NCBI GenBank assembly: GCA_017965475.1
Contig: JAGCPV010000061.1
Location: 1-33,748, forward strand
Reading direction: 5' to 3'
DNA: 33,748 nt
From: Prevotella sp.
Lineage (GTDB): Bacteria > Bacteroidota > Bacteroidia > Bacteroidales > Bacteroidaceae
Shown here: positions 1 to 16,312 of the stretch, one piece after another
How positions within the stretch are numbered: position 1 is the stretch's first letter
Layout of the letters: every line of letters starts with the position of its first letter
Notes under the pieces: model-generated
What the model was told of the DNA's origin: nothing
The model's input: the letters and a program-made list of their open reading frames with translations, nothing else
Database searches by the model: none
Position numbers and translations under genes: made by a program

Positions 1-1320
1 ATATGGAAGGCTTCCGGACACGTGGATGCCTTTAATGATCCCCTGATTGATAACCGCGACTCTAAGAAGCGCTATCGTGCTGATGTGCTGATTGAGGACC
101 AGATTGCCAAGTACGACGAGAAGATCCAGAAGGAGGTCGAGAAGGCCCGTAAGCGTTTTGGCGACAGCTTTGATGAGGCTAAGTATCTGGAGACTTCTGA
201 GCGCGTGAAGGAGACCAAGGAGAAGCGCGACGCCCTCCACGCCCGCTACGCTGCTGCCATGCAGGGTCCAGATCTCGACGAGTTGAAGCAGATTATCCTC
301 GACGAGGAGATTGTATGTCCTATCAGCGGAACCCGCAACTGGACCGATGTTCGTCAGTTCAACCTGATGTTCTCTACCGAGATGGGTGCCAGCGCTGATG
401 CTTCGATGAAGATCTACCTGCGTCCTGAGACCGCTCAGGGTATCTTCGTGAACTACCTGAATGTGCAGAAGACCGGTCGTATGAAGATTCCTTTTGGTAT
501 TGCCCAGATTGGTAAGGCTTTCCGTAACGAGATCGTGGCCCGTCAGTTCATCTTCCGTATGAGAGAGTTCGAGCAGATGGAGATGCAGTTCTTCGTACAG
601 CCTGGCACAGAGCTGGAGTGGTTCCCGAAGTGGAAGGAGACGCGTATGAAGTGGCATCAGGCCCTGGGCTTTGGTGCTGAGAACTACCGTTTCCATGATC
701 ACGATAAGCTGGCTCACTATGCCAACGCTGCAACCGATATCGAGTTTAAGATGCCGTTTGGCTTCAAGGAGGTGGAGGGTATCCACAGCCGCACGAACTT
801 CGACCTCTCGCAGCATGAGAAGTACTCTGGCAAGAGCATCAAATACTTTGATCCTCAGACCAACGAGAGCTACACCCCGTATGTGATCGAGACATCGATT
901 GGTGTGGATCGTATGTTCCTGAGCATCATGTGTCACGCCTACGAGGAGGAGAAACTCGAGAACGGTGAGACCCGCGTGGTGCTGAAGTTGCCTGCAGCTC
1001 TGGCTCCTGTGAAGTGTGCTGTGATGCCGTTGGTGAAGAAGGACGGTCTGCCCGAGAAGGCTCGTGAGATCATCGACCAGCTGAAGTTCCACTTCAATTG
1101 CCAGTATGATGAGAAGGATTCTATCGGTAAGCGCTATCGTCGTCAGGATGCTATTGGTACACCGTATTGCGTCACCGTCGATCACGACACGCTGAACGAT
1201 GGTTGCGTGACCCTGCGTTTCCGCGACACTATGGAGCAGGAGCGCGTGAAGATCGAGGAGCTCAATGGTATCATCGAGGATAAGGTTAGTATCGCAAGTC
1301 TGCTGAAGAAACTCCAATAA
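1..1320 (+). CDS. glyS: Glycine--tRNA ligase, class II dimeric type (5' end missing)
   Basis: This enzyme charges tRNA-Gly with glycine in the cytoplasm. The reading frame is open from the first base of the window (in-frame start IWKASGHVDAFNDP, typical of the family's N-terminal catalytic part), so the true start lies upstream; about 439 residues are present, against roughly 510 for a full bacterial enzyme of this type. Class II synthetase motif 2 is visible as FRNEIVARQFIFRMREFEQME and motif 3 as IETSIGVDRMFLSIM. The C-terminal anticodon-binding domain starts near LAPVKCAVMPLVKKDG. The family is the eukaryote/archaea-like single-chain GlyRS, not the alpha2beta2 type. The stop codon overlaps the start of the FKBP gene by one base (TAATG), which suggests co-transcription and translational coupling. 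Confidence 0.97.
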   Translation: MWKASGHVDAFNDPLIDNRDSKKRYRADVLIEDQIAKYDEKIQKEVEKARKRFGDSFDEAKYLETSERVKETKEKRDALHARYAAAMQGPDLDELKQIILDEEIVCPISGTRNWTDVRQFNLMFSTEMGASADASMKIYLRPETAQGIFVNYLNVQKTGRMKIPFGIAQIGKAFRNEIVARQFIFRMREFEQMEMQFFVQPGTELEWFPKWKETRMKWHQALGFGAENYRFHDHDKLAHYANAATDIEFKMPFGFKEVEGIHSRTNFDLSQHEKYSGKSIKYFDPQTNESYTPYVIETSIGVDRMFLSIMCHAYEEEKLENGETRVVLKLPAALAPVKCAVMPLVKKDGLPEKAREIIDQLKFHFNCQYDEKDSIGKRYRRQDAIGTPYCVTVDHDTLNDGCVTLRFRDTMEQERVKIEELNGIIEDKVSIASLLKKLQ

Positions 1321-1928
1321 TGAAGGTATTCAAGTACATATTCGCACTGATGATGCTGCCGCTGGCGGTGGCAGTGTCATCGTGCTCTGAGGACAGCAAC
1401 GAGGTGGATGAGTTTGAGAACTGGGAGGAGCGCAATAATGCAGCCATCACCCAGTGGTCGAACAACAGCGCGCTGCGGAAGATCAAGAGCTATACGAAGG
1501 ACCAGATGACGGGCGGCACGAGCAGCGACTATATCTACGTGGAGGTGCTGGAAAGCGGTAGCGAGACGGAGACGGAGAGTCCGCTGTTCAGTGACAATGT
1601 GTGGGTCGCCTACAGGGGAAGGTATATCCCCACGGTCTCGTATCCCGAGGGCTATATATTTGACCAGAGCTACGAGGGTGAGTTCGACTGGCGGACAGCT
1701 GACATGATAGAATTCAGCGTGAGCGGGGTGGTCACCGGTTTCTCGACGGCACTGATGCAGATGCACCGTGGCGACCGCTGGCGCGTGTATATCCCCTATC
1801 ATCTGGGCTACGGCACCTCGTCATCGACGTCCATCCGCGGCTACAGCAACCTGATCTTCGACATCGCGTTACTCGACTTCTGGCATCCCAACGAGGATCA
1901 TCCGATATCGTTCAAGGCCAGGGAATAG
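1320..1928 (+). CDS. FKBP-type peptidyl-prolyl cis-trans isomerase, lipoprotein
   Basis: A 202-residue exported lipoprotein. Residues 1-21 form a signal peptide ending in a lipobox (VSSC) with the lipidated cysteine at position 22, followed by an acidic stretch SEDSNEVDEFE. The C-terminal half carries an FKBP fold: VWVAYRGRYI, FDQSY, GVVTGFSTALMQMHRGDRWRVYIPYHLGYG and LIFDIALLDF match the family's strands and the loop before the active-site tyrosine. It probably assists folding of periplasmic or outer-membrane proteins; substrates are unknown. The segment after GYG (SSSTSIRGYSN) replaces the usual IPPNATL-like stretch. It overlaps glyS by one base and is followed 22 bases later by the ATPase gene, so it may sit in one operon with both neighbours. 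Family assignment is firm; isomerase activity is inferred. Confidence 0.9.
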   Translation: MKVFKYIFALMMLPLAVAVSSCSEDSNEVDEFENWEERNNAAITQWSNNSALRKIKSYTKDQMTGGTSSDYIYVEVLESGSETETESPLFSDNVWVAYRGRYIPTVSYPEGYIFDQSYEGEFDWRTADMIEFSVSGVVTGFSTALMQMHRGDRWRVYIPYHLGYGTSSSTSIRGYSNLIFDIALLDFWHPNEDHPISFKARE

Positions 1929-1950: not shown

Positions 1951-2790
1951 ATGGCAAAGTACGCCAATTACATCAAGCGCATTGAGATCGACTCGCTGTG
2001 GAGCGGGAAGAAACATGTGGTCTGGGAGTTGAACCGTCAGGTGAACATCCTCAGCGGCAGTAATGGTCAGGGCAAGAGTACGATCCTGAACAAGGTGGTG
2101 AGGGGTCTGTCGGCCGGTGGCGAGTTCCCCTCGCACATGCTGAAGGGTGTGAAGCTCGACGTGGAGCCCGAGGATGCGAAGTGGATCCGCTACGACGTGA
2201 TCCGTTCGCTCGACACGAACATCGCCCAGACAGTCTCGGAAGGCGAGAACTACCTGCGGCAGGCACTCCCGACATTAGGAGCCGTGGGAGGCGGCTTCTC
2301 CCTCCTGGATTTCCAGCTGTATCACCTGCAGCGGAAATTCCTCGACTATCAGGTGAACATCGGCAACCGTATCATCGCCGAGCTGCAGCAAGGGAACACG
2401 GACGCCGCCCAGCAGCTGTCGGTACAGAAGAAGCGTTTTCAGGACATCGTCGATGACCTGTTCTCGGAAACGGGCAAGAAGATCATACGCACGGAGAACG
2501 AGATCCGTTTCACACAGATCGGTGAGACGCTGATGCCATATCAGTTGTCGAGCGGTGAGAAACAGATCCTCGTCATTATGCTGACGGTGCTCGTGGAGGA
2601 TAACCAGCCCTACGTACTCTTCATGGACGAGCCCGAGGTGTCGCTCCATATCGAGTGGCAGAAACGGCTCATCGATCTCTGTCTAGAGCTGAACCCCAAC
2701 GTACAGATTATCCTGACGACCCACTCGCCCGCCGTGGTGATGAACGGCTGGGTGGATTCGGTGACGGAGGTGAGCGATATAACTGTATAA
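1951..2790 (+). CDS. ABC/AAA-type ATPase, AriA-like partner of the DUF4435 protein
   Basis: A 279-residue soluble ATPase of the SMC/RecF/OLD-like ABC class. Visible motifs: Walker A GSNGQGKST (residues 36-44), ABC signature LSSGEKQ (199-205), Walker B plus catalytic glutamate YVLFMDEPE (221-229, D226/E227), D-loop SLHIEW (231-236) and the switch histidine in TTHSP (H258). The region between Walker A and signature (about 60-195) is short and helical, so there is no long coiled-coil arm. The next gene encodes a DUF4435 protein 29 bases downstream. ATPase + DUF4435 is the layout of PARIS (AriA + AriB), where the ATPase assembles, senses a phage trigger and holds the nuclease. Role as AriA is inferred from architecture and neighbourhood; another ATPase-effector system, or a domesticated housekeeping pair, is possible. 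It starts with an unusually strong Shine-Dalgarno. Confidence 0.85.
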   Translation: MAKYANYIKRIEIDSLWSGKKHVVWELNRQVNILSGSNGQGKSTILNKVVRGLSAGGEFPSHMLKGVKLDVEPEDAKWIRYDVIRSLDTNIAQTVSEGENYLRQALPTLGAVGGGFSLLDFQLYHLQRKFLDYQVNIGNRIIAELQQGNTDAAQQLSVQKKRFQDIVDDLFSETGKKIIRTENEIRFTQIGETLMPYQLSSGEKQILVIMLTVLVEDNQPYVLFMDEPEVSLHIEWQKRLIDLCLELNPNVQIILTTHSPAVVMNGWVDSVTEVSDITV

Positions 2791-2820
2791 TTAGTAATTA
2801 GGAATTATGATTACTAATTA
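2788..2820. repeat. Perfect 11-bp inverted repeat between ATPase and DUF4435 genes
   Basis: TAATTAGTAAT (2788-2798) and ATTACTAATTA (2810-2820) are exact reverse complements around an 11-base loop. The left arm includes the TAA stop of the ATPase gene and the right arm ends on the A of the ATG of the DUF4435 gene, so the structure fills the whole gap. It is AT-only in the arms and has no T-tract, so it is not a standard terminator. Confidence 0.8.
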
Positions 2821-3818
2821 TGGGCAGAAGGCTGAAGGATAATCTCAACAGCAAGTATTTCGAGGCGGCAAACGCCTTGACCTCGAAGAAAGCACGGCAC
2901 AGGATCGTCGCCTATGTCGAGAGCTATGACGATATCTACTTCTGGCGCACGGTACTCTCTGAGTTTGAGGATGACAAACGCTATTTCGAGGTGATGCTGC
3001 CGTCGAAGGCGAACCTGACGCGCGGCAAGAAATCGGTGCTGATGAACTTCCTCGAAGGGGAGCCGCTCGGCAAGGACATGATCGCCTGTGTGGATGCCGA
3101 CTACGACTATATGATCCAGGGACGTACGGCACAGTCGAAGCGGGTGCTGGGAAGTACGTATGTTTTCCATACCTACGTCTATGCCATCGAGAACTACCAG
3201 TGCTATGCCCCTTCGTTGCATAATGTCTGTGTCTCCGTGACGCTCAACGACCATCGCATCTTCGACTTCCGTGAGTATTTCCAACAGTTCAGTGAGGCGC
3301 TGTTCCCCCTCTTCGTCTGGTCTGTGATGTTCTACCGCAACGGCAACTATCCGAAGTTCTCCATCACAGACTTCAACCGTATTGCCGACCCCGGAGGCTT
3401 CAACGTGCAGGATCCGGAGCCCTCGATCGCGAATGTCAGGCGGAAGGTGCATACGAAGATCAACGAACTGCAGCGCCAGTACCCTGACGCCAAGGAGGAA
3501 TATCTGGCGACGAAGGAGGATATCAAGGCGCTGGGTGTGACGCCGCAGACCACCTATCTCTATATCCAGGGGCATCACCTGTTCGATACGGTGGTATCGC
3601 CGATCATGACAAAGGTGTGCAACCTGCTCCGTCAGGAACGGCAGAACGAGATCTACCATGCCTCTGCGCACAAGACACAGAAGAGCAACGAGATGTCGTG
3701 CTACGAGAACTCGCTGCAGGACATCAAGGTGATGCTCAAGAAGAACAGCGGCTATATGATGTCGGAGCAGTTCCGCCGCCTCCAGGAGGACGTGAGGAAA
3801 TACCTGGAGAAGGGTTAA
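2820..3818 (+). CDS. DUF4435 domain protein, AriB-like (TOPRIM-type) effector candidate
   Basis: A 332-residue soluble protein with an N-terminal DUF4435 region. RIVAYVESYDDIYFWRTVL (residues 28-46) carries the conserved glutamate (E34) at the end of the first strand, and IACVDADYDYM (88-98) supplies an acidic D92-x-D94-x-D96 cluster; together they resemble the metal-binding E and DxD of TOPRIM nucleases. GKKSVLMNFL (69-78) fits the helix between them. The rest (about 100-332) is mostly helical with no other motif I recognise. In PARIS the DUF4435 protein AriB is the toxic nuclease released by the ATPase AriA, and the same gene order is seen here. Nuclease activity and an anti-phage role are inferred. 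The stop codon abuts the stop of manA on the other strand without any spacer. Confidence 0.82.
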   Translation: MGRRLKDNLNSKYFEAANALTSKKARHRIVAYVESYDDIYFWRTVLSEFEDDKRYFEVMLPSKANLTRGKKSVLMNFLEGEPLGKDMIACVDADYDYMIQGRTAQSKRVLGSTYVFHTYVYAIENYQCYAPSLHNVCVSVTLNDHRIFDFREYFQQFSEALFPLFVWSVMFYRNGNYPKFSITDFNRIADPGGFNVQDPEPSIANVRRKVHTKINELQRQYPDAKEEYLATKEDIKALGVTPQTTYLYIQGHHLFDTVVSPIMTKVCNLLRQERQNEIYHASAHKTQKSNEMSCYENSLQDIKVMLKKNSGYMMSEQFRRLQEDVRKYLEKG

Positions 3819-4772
3819 CTACACAAATGTTTCCAGAAACTTAATGGTGCCTTCGACTCTGACCTCACTGGCTGTGGCGGGGAGAAGGATGGTGTCACCC
3901 TTGCGGAATGACTGTTCCTCACCGTCGCAGATGAGTTTCCCCTCGCCCTTGACGGCAATCAGGATGACGAACGAGTCGAGATCGGAGTAGTCGAGTGTCA
4001 TCGGCTCCGTCAGGTCATAGACAGCCGTCGTGAAGTAAGGACACGTCACGAGCTGCACACCCTCATTCTCTTGGGGCTCGTAACCCGCACGATAGTTCGG
4101 CAATACGGTGTAGTCGATGCTCTCGGCCGCCTCCTGGGTATGGAGTTCACGGTAATGGCCGTCCTTGTCCTTACGTTTGTAGTCGTAGATGCGGTAGGTG
4201 ACATCGGAGGTCTGCTGGATCTCCGTCACGAAACAGCCAGCACCGATGGCATGGATACGGCCAGCGGGGATGAAGAACACATCGCCCTCATGTACCTCGT
4301 AGCTGGCCAACGCCTCCGTGATGGTGTCGTTATCCACCATCTCCTTATACGCCTCGGGAGTGATCTTCTTCTTCAGACCATTAAAGAGGGTGGCGCCTGG
4401 CTCTGATTCCAGACAGTACCACATCTCCGTCTTACCACGGGACTTACCCTGACGACGGGCTGTCTCATCGTCGGGATGCACCTGGATAGAGAGATCCTGA
4501 CAGGCGTCGATGAACTTGATCAGCAAGGGGAACTCATTGCCGAAACGCTCATAGTTCTCCTGCCCCAGGAGTCTTTCCTTCTCTATGCTCACCAGTTCGT
4601 TCAGGGTCTTGCCCATGTAGGGGCCGTCGGCCACGATGGTCTCATTGTCCTTGACACCTGAGATCTCCCAGCTCTCGCCAACATGGTCCAGTTGGGTATC
4701 CAGATGTTTGAAGGGGATAATCTTGTCACCTCCCCAGAGTGTTTGCTTCAACAGCGGTTTGAATCTATACAT
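3819..4772 (-). CDS. manA: Mannose-6-phosphate isomerase, class I
   Basis: Interconverts mannose 6-phosphate and fructose 6-phosphate in the cytoplasm, linking glycolysis to GDP-mannose and mannose-containing glycans. The 317 residues match the short bacterial zinc-dependent type I family. SIQVHPDDETARR supplies zinc ligands (Q97, H99), TEMWYCL gives E116, and FIPAGRIHAIGAG gives H174; TYRIYDY contains the catalytic arginine (R194). The C-terminal cupin-like part runs through KGEGKLICDGEEQSFRKGDTILLP. It is the last gene of the dxs-trkA-trkH-manA group, 12 bases after the trkH stop, and meets the DUF4435 gene tail to tail with no intervening base and no visible terminator. Confidence 0.96.
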   Translation of the reverse strand: MYRFKPLLKQTLWGGDKIIPFKHLDTQLDHVGESWEISGVKDNETIVADGPYMGKTLNELVSIEKERLLGQENYERFGNEFPLLIKFIDACQDLSIQVHPDDETARRQGKSRGKTEMWYCLESEPGATLFNGLKKKITPEAYKEMVDNDTITEALASYEVHEGDVFFIPAGRIHAIGAGCFVTEIQQTSDVTYRIYDYKRKDKDGHYRELHTQEAAESIDYTVLPNYRAGYEPQENEGVQLVTCPYFTTAVYDLTEPMTLDYSDLDSFVILIAVKGEGKLICDGEEQSFRKGDTILLPATASEVRVEGTIKFLETFV

Positions 4773-13188: not shown

Positions 13189-13569
13189 ATGGCAAAGGTA
13201 ATTGAAGGACTCTACTACTCGGAGTCGCACGAATATGTGAGAGTAGAAGGTGATTTTGGTTTCATCGGTATCACGGACTATGCACAGAACGCCCTGGGCA
13301 ATGTGGTGTATGTAGATATGCCTGAGGTGGATGACGAGGTCGAGGCCGGTGAGGAGTTTGGTGCCGTGGAGAGTGTCAAGGCCGCCAGTGACCTGTACGC
13401 ACCCGTCAGCGGAACCGTCGTGGAGATCAACGAAGCGCTGGAAGACCAGCCCGAGCTCATCAACCAGGATGCCTTCGAGAACTGGATCATCAAGGTGGAA
13501 CTCTCTGACAAGTCGGAGCTCGATGCACTCATGAACGCCACTGCCTATGCAGCCTTCTGCGAGAAATAA
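13189..13569 (+). CDS. gcvH: Glycine cleavage system H protein (lipoyl carrier)
   Basis: Small carrier (126 residues) that shuttles the aminomethyl intermediate between P, T and L proteins on a lipoyl arm. The attachment lysine is K64 in GAVESVKAASDLYAPVSG, the standard site. YSESHEYVRVEGDFGFIGITDYAQNALG is the family N-terminus. The stop codon TAA at 13567-13569 overlaps an ATG of the gcvPA frame. The leader before the ATG is A-rich with AAGGAAAAAGG but no clear Shine-Dalgarno at proper spacing. Confidence 0.98.
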   Translation: MAKVIEGLYYSESHEYVRVEGDFGFIGITDYAQNALGNVVYVDMPEVDDEVEAGEEFGAVESVKAASDLYAPVSGTVVEINEALEDQPELINQDAFENWIIKVELSDKSELDALMNATAYAAFCEK

Positions 13570-13589
13570 TGTTCAATGAACCATGTTCC

Positions 13590-14906
13590 ATGAATTATAA
13601 GTATTTCCCCCATACCCAGGAGGATCTTCAGGCGATGATGGAGAAGGCGGGCGTGACATCGCTCGACGGACTCTACGCCCAGATTCCCGAGGATGTCCGC
13701 TTCCGTGGCGACTACCAGATCCCTTCGGAGATGAGTGAGATGGAGGTGCGTGACACCTTCGCCAAATTAGGTTCGCAAAACGAACAGCTCACCTGTTTCG
13801 CGGGCTATGGTGTCTATGACCACTACACGCCCTCGGTGATACCCTGTCTGCTGCAGCGCTCCGAATTCCTGACCTCCTACACCCCGTATCAGGCCGAGAT
13901 CTCACAGGGCACGCTCCATTATATCTTTGAGTATCAAAGTATGATGGCTGAACTGACGGGCATGGACATCTCCAACGCCTCGATGTACGACGGTACGACT
14001 GCTGCCGCCGAGGCTATGATGATGGCCGTGGCCGCCGGCAAGAAGGTAAACAAGGTGCTGGTGTCGGCCACAATGAATCCCAAGACTCGTGAGGTACTTG
14101 ACACCTATGCCCTGCACCAGGGCATAGAACTGGTGACAATCCCCATGAAGGATGGTGTGACCTCAAAGGCCGACCTCCATGCTCTGCTTACCGAGGACGG
14201 TGTGGCTGGTGTAATGGTTCAGCAGCCTAACGTCTATGGCATCGTCGAGGACTATACGGACTTCGCCGAGGCTTGCCACGACAAGAAGGCCCTCTTCATC
14301 ATGGACAGCGTCGCCGCTGATCTCGCCGTGCTGAAGACCCCAGGCGAATGGGGTGCCGACATCGCCATAGGCGACGGCCAGAGCCTGGGTATCCCCATGC
14401 TCTTTGGTGGCCCATACGTAGGCTATATGTGCTGTACGGAGAAACTCATCCGTAAGATGCCAGGCCGTATCGTCGGTATGACGAAGGACAACCGCAACCA
14501 ACGGGCCTTCGTGCTCACCCTTCAGGCCCGCGAACAACATATCCGCCGTCAAAAAGCAACCTCGAATATATGTTCGAACCAGTCGCTGATGGCTCTCTTC
14601 GTGACGATCTATCTGTCGTTGATGGGTAAACAGGGCATGAAGGAGGCTGCCCAACTATCCTATGCCGGTGCACATTATCTCTGCGACGAACTGTTGAAGA
14701 CAGGCCGTTTCTCCTTAGCCTACGACCAACCCTTCTTTAATGAGTTCTATGTGAAGTACGATGGTGATATCGACACCCTCTATCAGCGTTTCATCGATGC
14801 CGGTTTCCTGGGTGGTGTGAAGTATGATGATGGTATCCTTTTTGCCGTCACCGAGAAACGTACGAAGGAAGAAATTGATAACCTCGTAAAACTGGCTGCC
14901 TTATGA
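13590..14906 (+). CDS. gcvPA: Glycine dehydrogenase (decarboxylating) subunit 1, P protein N-terminal half
   Basis: With GcvPB forms the split P protein that decarboxylates glycine with pyridoxal phosphate and loads the methylamine on GcvH. About 438 residues from [13 protein letters not shown], the usual N-terminus; [39 protein letters not shown] is a hallmark stretch. This half has the fold but not the cofactor lysine. The frame is open to an ATG at 13569 that overlaps the gcvH stop (adding MFNEPCS); I prefer 13590 because the extra seven codons look like spacer. The stop overlaps the gcvPB start (ATGA). Confidence 0.96.
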
Positions 14907-16312
14907 ACAATAGACTATACGGCAATCTGATCTTCGAACTCTCGAAGGAGGGTCGCAAAGGCTACAGTCTGCCAAGGAATAATTTTGGCAGTTACGAGAT
15001 ACCAGCAACGATGAAACGTTCTGACGATGCAGAGTTTCCCGAGTGCGACGAACTGACGGTGGTGCGCCACTACACGAACCTCTCCAATAATAACTTCGGT
15101 GTCGATACGGGCTTCTACCCCCTCGGATCGTGTACAATGAAGTATAACCCGAAGATCAACGAAGAGATGGCTGCCCTACCACAGTTCCAGAACCTCCATC
15201 CTGCACAGCCTGCCAACACTACGAAAGGTGCCATGGCGTTGGTATCACTGTTGGAGAAATCACTCTGCGAACTCACGGGTCTGGCCCACTTCACCTTCAA
15301 GCCCTACGCTGGTGCACATGGTGAACTGACGGGTCTGATGACCATCGACAACTACCACCGCTCACGTGGTGACATGACCCGTAAGAAGGTGATCGTCCCC
15401 GATTCTGCCCATGGCACGAATCCCGCTTCGGCCGCCGTCTGCGGACTAGAGATCATCGAAGTAAAATCAGATGCTAGAGGTCTAGTCGATCTAGCCGATC
15501 TGGAGAGGCTAGTCGGGCTAGAAGGAGAAAACATCGCCGCCATGATGATGACCAATCCCAATACCCTCGGCCTCTTTGAGACCCGCATTCCGGAAATCGC
15601 AAAGCTTATCCACAATTGCGGCGGTCTGATGTACTACGACGGTGCCAACCTAAACCCCATGTTGGGTGCCTGTCGCCCTGGTGACATGGGGTTCGACGTC
15701 ATGCACATAAACCTCCACAAGACTTTCTCCACACCTCATGGTGGTGGCGGTCCAGGCTCTGGTCCTGTGGGTGTGTGCGAGGGCTTGCAGGATTATTTCC
15801 CCGTGGTGTCACCCTATTATGGTAACTTCGGCGTGATGATGCGCGCCTATGCCTATATTCTCTCGTTAGGTCGTGAGCATATCAAGGAAGTCGGTCCGCT
15901 GGCCACGCTCAACGCCAACTATATCAAGGAGTCGCTGAAAGATGTCTATGAACTGCCCATCGATGGTCTGTGTTGTCATGAGTTCGTGTTCGACGGACTA
16001 AAAGACAAGAGTACGGGTGTCACTACGATGGACGTGGCCAAACGTCTGCTCGACTATGGCTATCATGCGCCCACGATCTACTTCCCATTGCTCTTCCACG
16101 AGAGTCTGATGATCGAGCCGACAGAGAACGAGTCAAAGGAGACGCTCGACGGTTTCATCGCCGTGATGCGGACGATTGCCGAGGAGGCCAAGACCAATCC
16201 AGAACTGGTGAAGTCTGCGCCCCACGACACACCCATCGGCCGCGTTGATGATGTCCTCGCCGCCAAGCATCCTATCACTACTTATAAACAAATGATCAAT
16301 GACAACAACTGA
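14903..16312 (+). CDS. gcvPB: Glycine dehydrogenase (decarboxylating) subunit 2, P protein C-terminal half
   Basis: Cofactor-bearing half of the split P protein. 469 residues. The pyridoxal phosphate lysine is K273 in [19 protein letters not shown]; other signatures are [14 protein letters not shown] (72-84), PYAGAHGE (134-141), [12 protein letters not shown] (167-178) and [10 protein letters not shown] (217-226). It overlaps gcvPA by four bases and lpd by 14 bases. Around residues 182-207 the gene uses codons unlike its surroundings (CTA, AGG, AGA, GGG) and holds a dense cluster of CTAG. The local protein segment [20 protein letters not shown] seems a few residues longer than I expect for the family. 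Confidence 0.96.

Follow-up and report, generated by a model that had tools for sequence, protein, structure and literature searches.

Why should a gene pair that resembles the anti-phage system PARIS lie among housekeeping genes in a Prevotella genome? The pair was found in a 33,748-nucleotide stretch of contig JAGCPV010000061.1 (hereafter the window), where 22 bp separate the end of the bamJ-type gene from the ATPase start and 29 bp separate the ATPase ORF from the downstream DUF4435 ORF. In line with the original prediction, Pfam recognized no mobile element in the 12 further ORFs of the window to which it was applied. The window also holds no tRNA genes. Below, "the family" is the one holding Prevotella and Bacteroides, which we take to be the GTDB Bacteroidaceae, an assignment consistent with a B. 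finegoldii record and with Bacteroides ihuae, a control genome. The gene names glyS, trkH, trkA and dxs were assigned by inspection or taken from the original prediction. As side observations, the BamJ-type gene is fast-evolving (median identity 45% over 56 loci, with more conserved flanking genes), and the glycine cleavage P-protein at 13569-16312 is encoded by two ORFs with a 4-base overlap, probably the usual two-subunit form.

Table 1 Position of the ATPase–DUF4435 pair and its immediate neighbors in the window.
Feature	Position	Strand	Basis
bamJ-type FKBP lipoprotein gene	1320..1928	+	NCBIfam BamJ E 2.6e-58, above its cut-off
AriA-type (OLD/AriA) ABC ATPase, 279 aa, arm-less	1951..2790	+	Pfam, PADLOC, AriA profile match
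332-aa DUF4435 protein (AriB-type), predicted to be a Toprim nuclease	2820..3818	+	Pfam, PADLOC, invariant residues
manA-type mannose-6-phosphate isomerase, converging (context only)	3819..4772	-	Pfam PMI_typeI_cat, MPI_cupin_dom

The translation of the first ORF displays Walker A (GSNGQGKST), signature (LSSGEKQ), Walker B (VLFMDEPE) and H-switch (TTHSP) motifs, in agreement with the prediction of an ABC ATPase with all its motifs. Pfam assigns it to AAA_15 (67.2 bits) and AAA_21 (63.9 bits) and its best PADLOC match is the AriA model PDLC04164 (E 9.8e-55). The closest sequence with a solved structure is AriA (8ux9), at E 1.9e-12 for the single sequence and E 1.1e-27 for the ATPase profile. 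The solved AriA has 464 residues and PARIS AriA proteins span 388-464, whereas the window ATPase has 279 and those of the family 244-288, so the short protein without a long arm was described correctly. Since about 64 positions of the ATPase profile face about 235 AriA residues in the middle segment, it is the middle arm that is missing; a protein shorter by these roughly 170 residues may assemble and sense differently from AriA. Residues 91-105 are poorly conserved, with a mean of 0.20 over 45 family rows. Related ATPases on three IMG/VR contigs measure 395-403 aa and an E. coli prophage relative, which has a DinI-like gene on one side and phage portal and terminase genes on the other, 388 aa, while small-plasmid ATPases are intermediate (325 and 335 aa). 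A short AriA-type ATPase as such is already known, as PADLOC includes short models (PDLC04164/PDLC04165). The 253-position PDLC04164 is also the best match of longer ATPases, and it fits the 241-aa ATPase of a separate pair in genome G012 end to end and far better (E 6e-108) than the window ATPase.

The second protein matches Pfam DUF4435 with 203.8 bits and PADLOC AriB with E 7e-71. Among solved-structure (PDB) sequences, phmmer found no match to it and its profile found only unrelated ones, at E 0.18 or worse. Fourteen positions are invariant in 58 of 58 homologs (E34, D38, F41, W42, G69, D92, D94, T118, E124, C128, L133, S158, G251 and H252). An alignment of 11 rows, including prophage, viral-contig and plasmid DUF4435 proteins, retains M1, E34, D38, W42, D92, D94, T118, E124, S158, G251 and H252, so that the E. 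coli prophage protein has E34, D38, D92, D94, E124, G251 and H252 in common with the 58 homologs. Of the acidic residues named in the original prediction, E34, D92 and D94 thus stand as invariant; D96 does not stand as catalytic, because only 48 of 58 homologs have D at this position, which places it outside the universal motif. Judged by motif, the catalytic acidic residues of a Toprim nuclease are present. AriB is a two-metal tRNase inactivated by the E26A mutation, and its metal site resembles that of the Toprim enzyme RNase M5 (PMC12409363, in part). From AriB E26 and the order of the motifs, the invariant acidic residues presumably form the metal site; equivalence with AriB was drawn via relatives other than the E. 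coli B185 protein, which was not aligned. Mutation of AriB K60 and K64, 34 and 38 residues after E26, prevents defense against T7 (PMC12409363, in part). The window nuclease carries G69-K70-K71 35-37 residues past E34 (G69 invariant, K70 in 48/58, K71 in 43/58), a likeness in spacing to the unaligned AriB that is suggestive only.

PARIS is an anti-phage system triggered by Ocr or Arn-like proteins, in which an AriA hexamer holds AriB and the Toprim subunit cleaves tRNA-Lys(UUU). AriA is described as binding and gating AriB (commentary PMC11455837). A published rule calls PARIS where an AAA_15 match of at least 32 or an AAA_21 match of at least 27 bits is encoded next to a DUF4435 match of at least 27 bits (PMC9122126, in part). 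The window pair, with 67.2, 63.9 and 203.8 bits, is PARIS under this rule and has its best matches in AriA and AriB, which bears out the proposed PARIS-type relationship. The pair shares with PARIS of E. coli B185 and its prophage-borne relatives the order of ABC ATPase then DUF4435 protein, and active-site residues are common to the family nucleases and the annotated E. coli prophage pair. Two features of the B185 subtype differ here: in place of a long AriA with an extended middle segment we found a short one, and in place of carriage in a prophage or satellite hotspot a housekeeping context. PARIS has been described in prophage and satellite hotspots (PMC9122126, in part), where its carriage is patchy, whereas the pair of the family is chromosomal and near-universal (146/151 genomes).

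OLD nucleases, Gabija GajA and Septu PtuA have an OLD-type ABC ATPase in common with the window pair, and their matches are weaker than that of AriA. Septu combines the PtuA ATPase with the HNH partner PtuB; in the window the partner is a DUF4435 protein without a Pfam HNH match at E 1. OLD and GajA carry a Toprim nuclease (PMC10568477, in part), and these systems use fused domains or other partners, unlike the separate genes seen here. In OLD class 1 and Gabija, as commonly described and in PMC12839542 (in part), ATPase and Toprim form one chain and the GajB helicase is encoded beside GajA. The window instead has two separate ORFs between BamJ- and ManA-type neighbors, and no helicase was recognized beside the pair. 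That the pair is an OLD/Gabija-like nuclease acting on DNA ends and not on RNA therefore appears very unlikely, even with its OLD-type ATPase and Toprim-type partner, the PtuA matches of the window ATPase and a weak GajA match of the G012 ATPase, as the best matches are AriA and AriB, and AriB is reported to be a tRNase (PMC12409363, in part).

Patchy, mobile carriage is what one expects of a defense system. In the window's genus, a search with the window protein detected the DUF4435 gene in 281 of 299 genomes, the window's own included (one of them, G109, only at E 6e-4), and in 130 of the 131 of high quality. For the family, genomes with a completeness of at least 90% were searched; 146 of 151 carry it, representing 22 of 22 genera. 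An order sample gave a nuclease match in 17 of 198 genomes, among them the window's own and two family members, and a Pfam DUF4435 search was positive in 6 of 197 other Bacteroidota genomes; the rates for genus, family and phylum are not strictly comparable, as query (protein or Pfam model) and cut-off differ. In genus g97 all eight genomes have a relative of the nuclease, with an AriA-like ATPase in both of the two examined. Genus g172 includes one DUF4435-positive genome and at least four negative ones. Named relatives (80 of 563 matches) are Prevotella, Prevotellaceae and one Xylanibacter ruminicola, and many come from the rumen. The nuclease gene of G174, which belongs to a selection of 50 genus genomes, is split into two parts that lie in different reading frames. 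A PARIS-type pair is thus found in nearly all sampled genomes of a dominant gut family, as the suggestion of a domesticated or stably inherited pair had anticipated, and tools that apply the published rule should flag a defense system in almost every family genome.

It is this distribution, the near-universal and mostly vertical carriage of a PARIS-type pair in the family, that is new. In the open PMC literature, the pair was not found described as core in the family among the matches listed, and the word PARIS is absent from the main texts of two PADLOC rumen surveys. The distribution may have been noticed earlier, for example in supplements, in subscription papers or in the distribution figure of PMC9122126.

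The two genes are tightly associated. Our 144 loci represent 136 distinct nuclease proteins, 122 of them from the family, and the ATPase adjoins the nuclease on the same strand in 122 of 122 distinct family cases (median gap 21 bp, range -16 to 196). At four loci, judging by position, a long antisense ORF hides the ATPase, and tblastn recovers all four. By tblastn the ATPase stands beside the nuclease at 11 of the 14 order-level loci (L033-L046) and is not found at 3 of all 144 (L033, L034 and L046); the L046 genome has an ATPase match about 3 kb away. The 80 named Prevotella-type loci offer no exception to adjacency once partial alignments are allowed for. At E 1e-5, all 58 nuclease rows match DUF4435 and all 56 ATPase rows match both AAA_15 and AAA_21.

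Absence is shared as well. We searched ten genomes without a clear nuclease ortholog (the five family negatives, four of the 18 genus negatives and G109 with its weak match) and found no ATPase at E 1e-8 in nine of them, while it was detected in two of two controls. This joint loss is modest evidence of coupling, since six of the ten genomes are at least 90% complete and a single deletion or assembly gap removes adjacent genes together. The tenth genome, G012, lacks the core pair and has a separate divergent one of 241 and 282 aa (L230 631-2211 / L276 5438-7018), which by inspection adjoins an RNase III-type gene and whose nuclease is placed outside the family clade. In a further family member, G498, a divergent ATPase–DUF4435 pair (26 and 30% identity; locus L112) replaces the usual one.

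Constant adjacency would also be expected if the pair were a selfishly kept toxin–antitoxin module, with a nuclease toxin held by the ATPase, and a commentary classes PARIS in this way (PMC11455837). We consider such an addiction pair improbable: deletion of ariA or ariB is non-toxic in E. coli B185, which was taken as excluding it (PMC9122126, in part), and orphan nucleases persist without an ATPase, as described below.

In order to compare the history of the pair with that of its hosts, we used Dxs, a single marker and hence a thin species proxy. For 31 family taxa the pair tree and the Dxs tree share 10 of 28 splits, while shuffled trees share 0.2 on average and at most 3 (1000 shuffles). 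Eight splits are strong in both trees. There are also seven conflicting pairs of strongly supported splits, and six of these pairs concern relations within or beside the window's genus. The Mantel correlation is 0.553, a value reached in 0 of 2000 permutations. In a nuclease tree with 56 tips, the family apart from G498 forms one clade of 30 tips with an ultrafast bootstrap of 100, and G498 falls outside.

Median dN/dS is 0.196 for the nuclease (116 pairs) and 0.172 for the ATPase (228 pairs). Among the other genes we obtained 0.200 for TrkH (62 pairs), 0.160 for TrkA (88), 0.113 for ManA (12), 0.053 for GlyS (563), 0.059 for Dxs (16) and 0.458 for BamJ (21). In 40 matched pairs the value of the nuclease (0.113) again exceeds that of GlyS (0.065). 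These medians indicate purifying selection on the pair that is similar to that on the transporter genes, stricter than on BamJ and looser than on GlyS and Dxs, and at the whole-gene level there is no sign of diversifying selection.

Taken with the distribution, these data make it probable that the pair is an arm-less module of the PARIS type, old and passed on mostly by vertical descent, which became near-universal in the family holding Prevotella and Bacteroides. What it does there can be read in more than one way. The pair may be a fixed form of innate immunity, that is, ordinary PARIS abortive infection which nearly every lineage keeps under constant gut phage pressure, and we give this a chance approaching even. 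It falls under the published rule, AriA is its best solved-structure sequence match, ten active-site-type positions besides M1 are common to prophage, viral-contig and plasmid DUF4435 proteins, and its absence from a few near-complete genomes indicates that it is dispensable. On the other hand, PARIS elsewhere occupies prophage and satellite hotspots (PMC9122126, in part) and not a housekeeping context, and the whole-gene dN/dS values lack the mark of diversification. As a built-in immune layer the pair would be relevant to anyone who works with phages of Prevotella and Bacteroides; otherwise, an immune nuclease would have been turned into ordinary cell machinery.

The surroundings of the pair were compared in the window and 40 fetched regions (41 loci). 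A divergent EamA/DMT-type transporter lies immediately upstream of the pair in 14 of the 41 loci. In several g2 genomes it lies between a meaB-type gene and a mechanosensitive channel. Some Prevotella, along with g153, g162 and g164, have trkA and dxs downstream of the pair, and in g163 dxs is upstream; among the 80 named Prevotella-type loci dxs is downstream in 53 and glyS upstream in 53, and many contigs end nearby. Neighbors therefore vary from genus to genus across the 41 loci, so a single fixed site, as considered in the original prediction, was rejected, and the pair persists through rearranged surroundings.

In 33 of the 41 loci the 150 bp that precede the ATPase contain the motif TAnnTTTG, which we take to be the -7 box of Bacteroidota promoters; in 32 of these it lies 25-51 bp before the start. 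From shuffles, 4.0 (single bases) or 4.5 (dinucleotides) loci would be expected. In most of the lineages examined the pair thus carries its own promoter-like motif. No TAnnTTTG was found within 150 bp upstream of the window ATPase; together with the 22-bp gap this makes read-through from bamJ likely, so that in this lineage the pair is likely co-transcribed with bamJ.

How the arm-less module would work can be sketched from homology to AriA and AriB. The ATPase would assemble with the DUF4435 nuclease and restrain it; ATP-dependent sensing of a trigger would alter the ATPase, upon which the nuclease would dimerize. The dimer would then cut with two metal ions, most likely RNA such as tRNA, and cleavage would arrest translation and growth. 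For tRNA itself as the target, analogy to AriB makes a reasonable case that stops short of likely. As the module is neither mobile nor fast-evolving, we judge that it responds to some general and ever-present insult (infection, or translation or DNA stress) and not to one phage protein.

Gating by an AriA-type ATPase is not universal, as orphan nucleases occur in genus g104 of another Bacteroidales family (L033, L034, L278-L297). There, the nuclease occurs in 20 of 23 genomes, and 10 of the 11 high-quality ones carry it. At E 1e-5 an AriA-like ATPase was detected in none of these 20 genomes, and all four positive controls reach E 1e-87 or better; three of the 20 contain short ATPase fragments at 5e-5 to 2e-4. 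The catalytic residues of the nuclease are intact in 20 of 20. In the tree, eight of the 20 form one clade (100) that joins the family clade at a support of 90. This genus offers a natural test of nuclease action without its ATPase.

Orphan nucleases with an intact active site would suit a domesticated cellular enzyme, one that serves RNA (tRNA) or DNA turnover or a stress response in uninfected cells and has lost its immune role. Near-universal carriage in the family, the promoter motif at 33 of 41 loci and purifying selection resembling that on neighboring transporter genes point the same way, whereas 5 of 151 family genomes have no match and the known tested homolog is immune. We regard such domestication as possible, on a tentative footing. 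A broader version, which we find rather doubtful, makes the nuclease an RNase that belongs to the core cellular machinery in several Bacteroidales lineages; an OLD-type ATPase would normally gate it, in one genus it would work alone, and PARIS immunity would be its mobile offshoot or its source. The everyday job of such a housekeeping RNase could be, for example, tRNA turnover or stress arrest.

A mobile or plasmid origin of the module was also considered. Of 72,556 plasmid records, 16 match the nuclease, two in the family (48-51% identity) and fourteen in Proteobacteria (20-23%). One family match is a Phocaeicola record without useful annotation. The other, B. finegoldii NZ_OY725943.1 (L268), encodes alpha-2-macroglobulin, DUF1573, meaB, a DMT transporter, the ATPase, DUF4435 and a mechanosensitive channel, an order that by inspection resembles the g2 context, and one g2 genome with a similar order is a single 4.4-Mb contig. 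We infer that this record is a chromosomal piece labeled as a plasmid, and given these two records a mobile origin was dropped. The nuclease query had no match in 50,697 phage records; this says little, and was set aside as evidence of immobility, because a viral-contig DUF4435 query matched none there either. A pattern scan of IMG/VR yielded three relatives with 22-36% identity. Finally, genomes G024, G163, G030, G501 and G634 contain a second DUF4435 gene elsewhere (25-27% identity), perhaps mobile PARIS beside the core pair.
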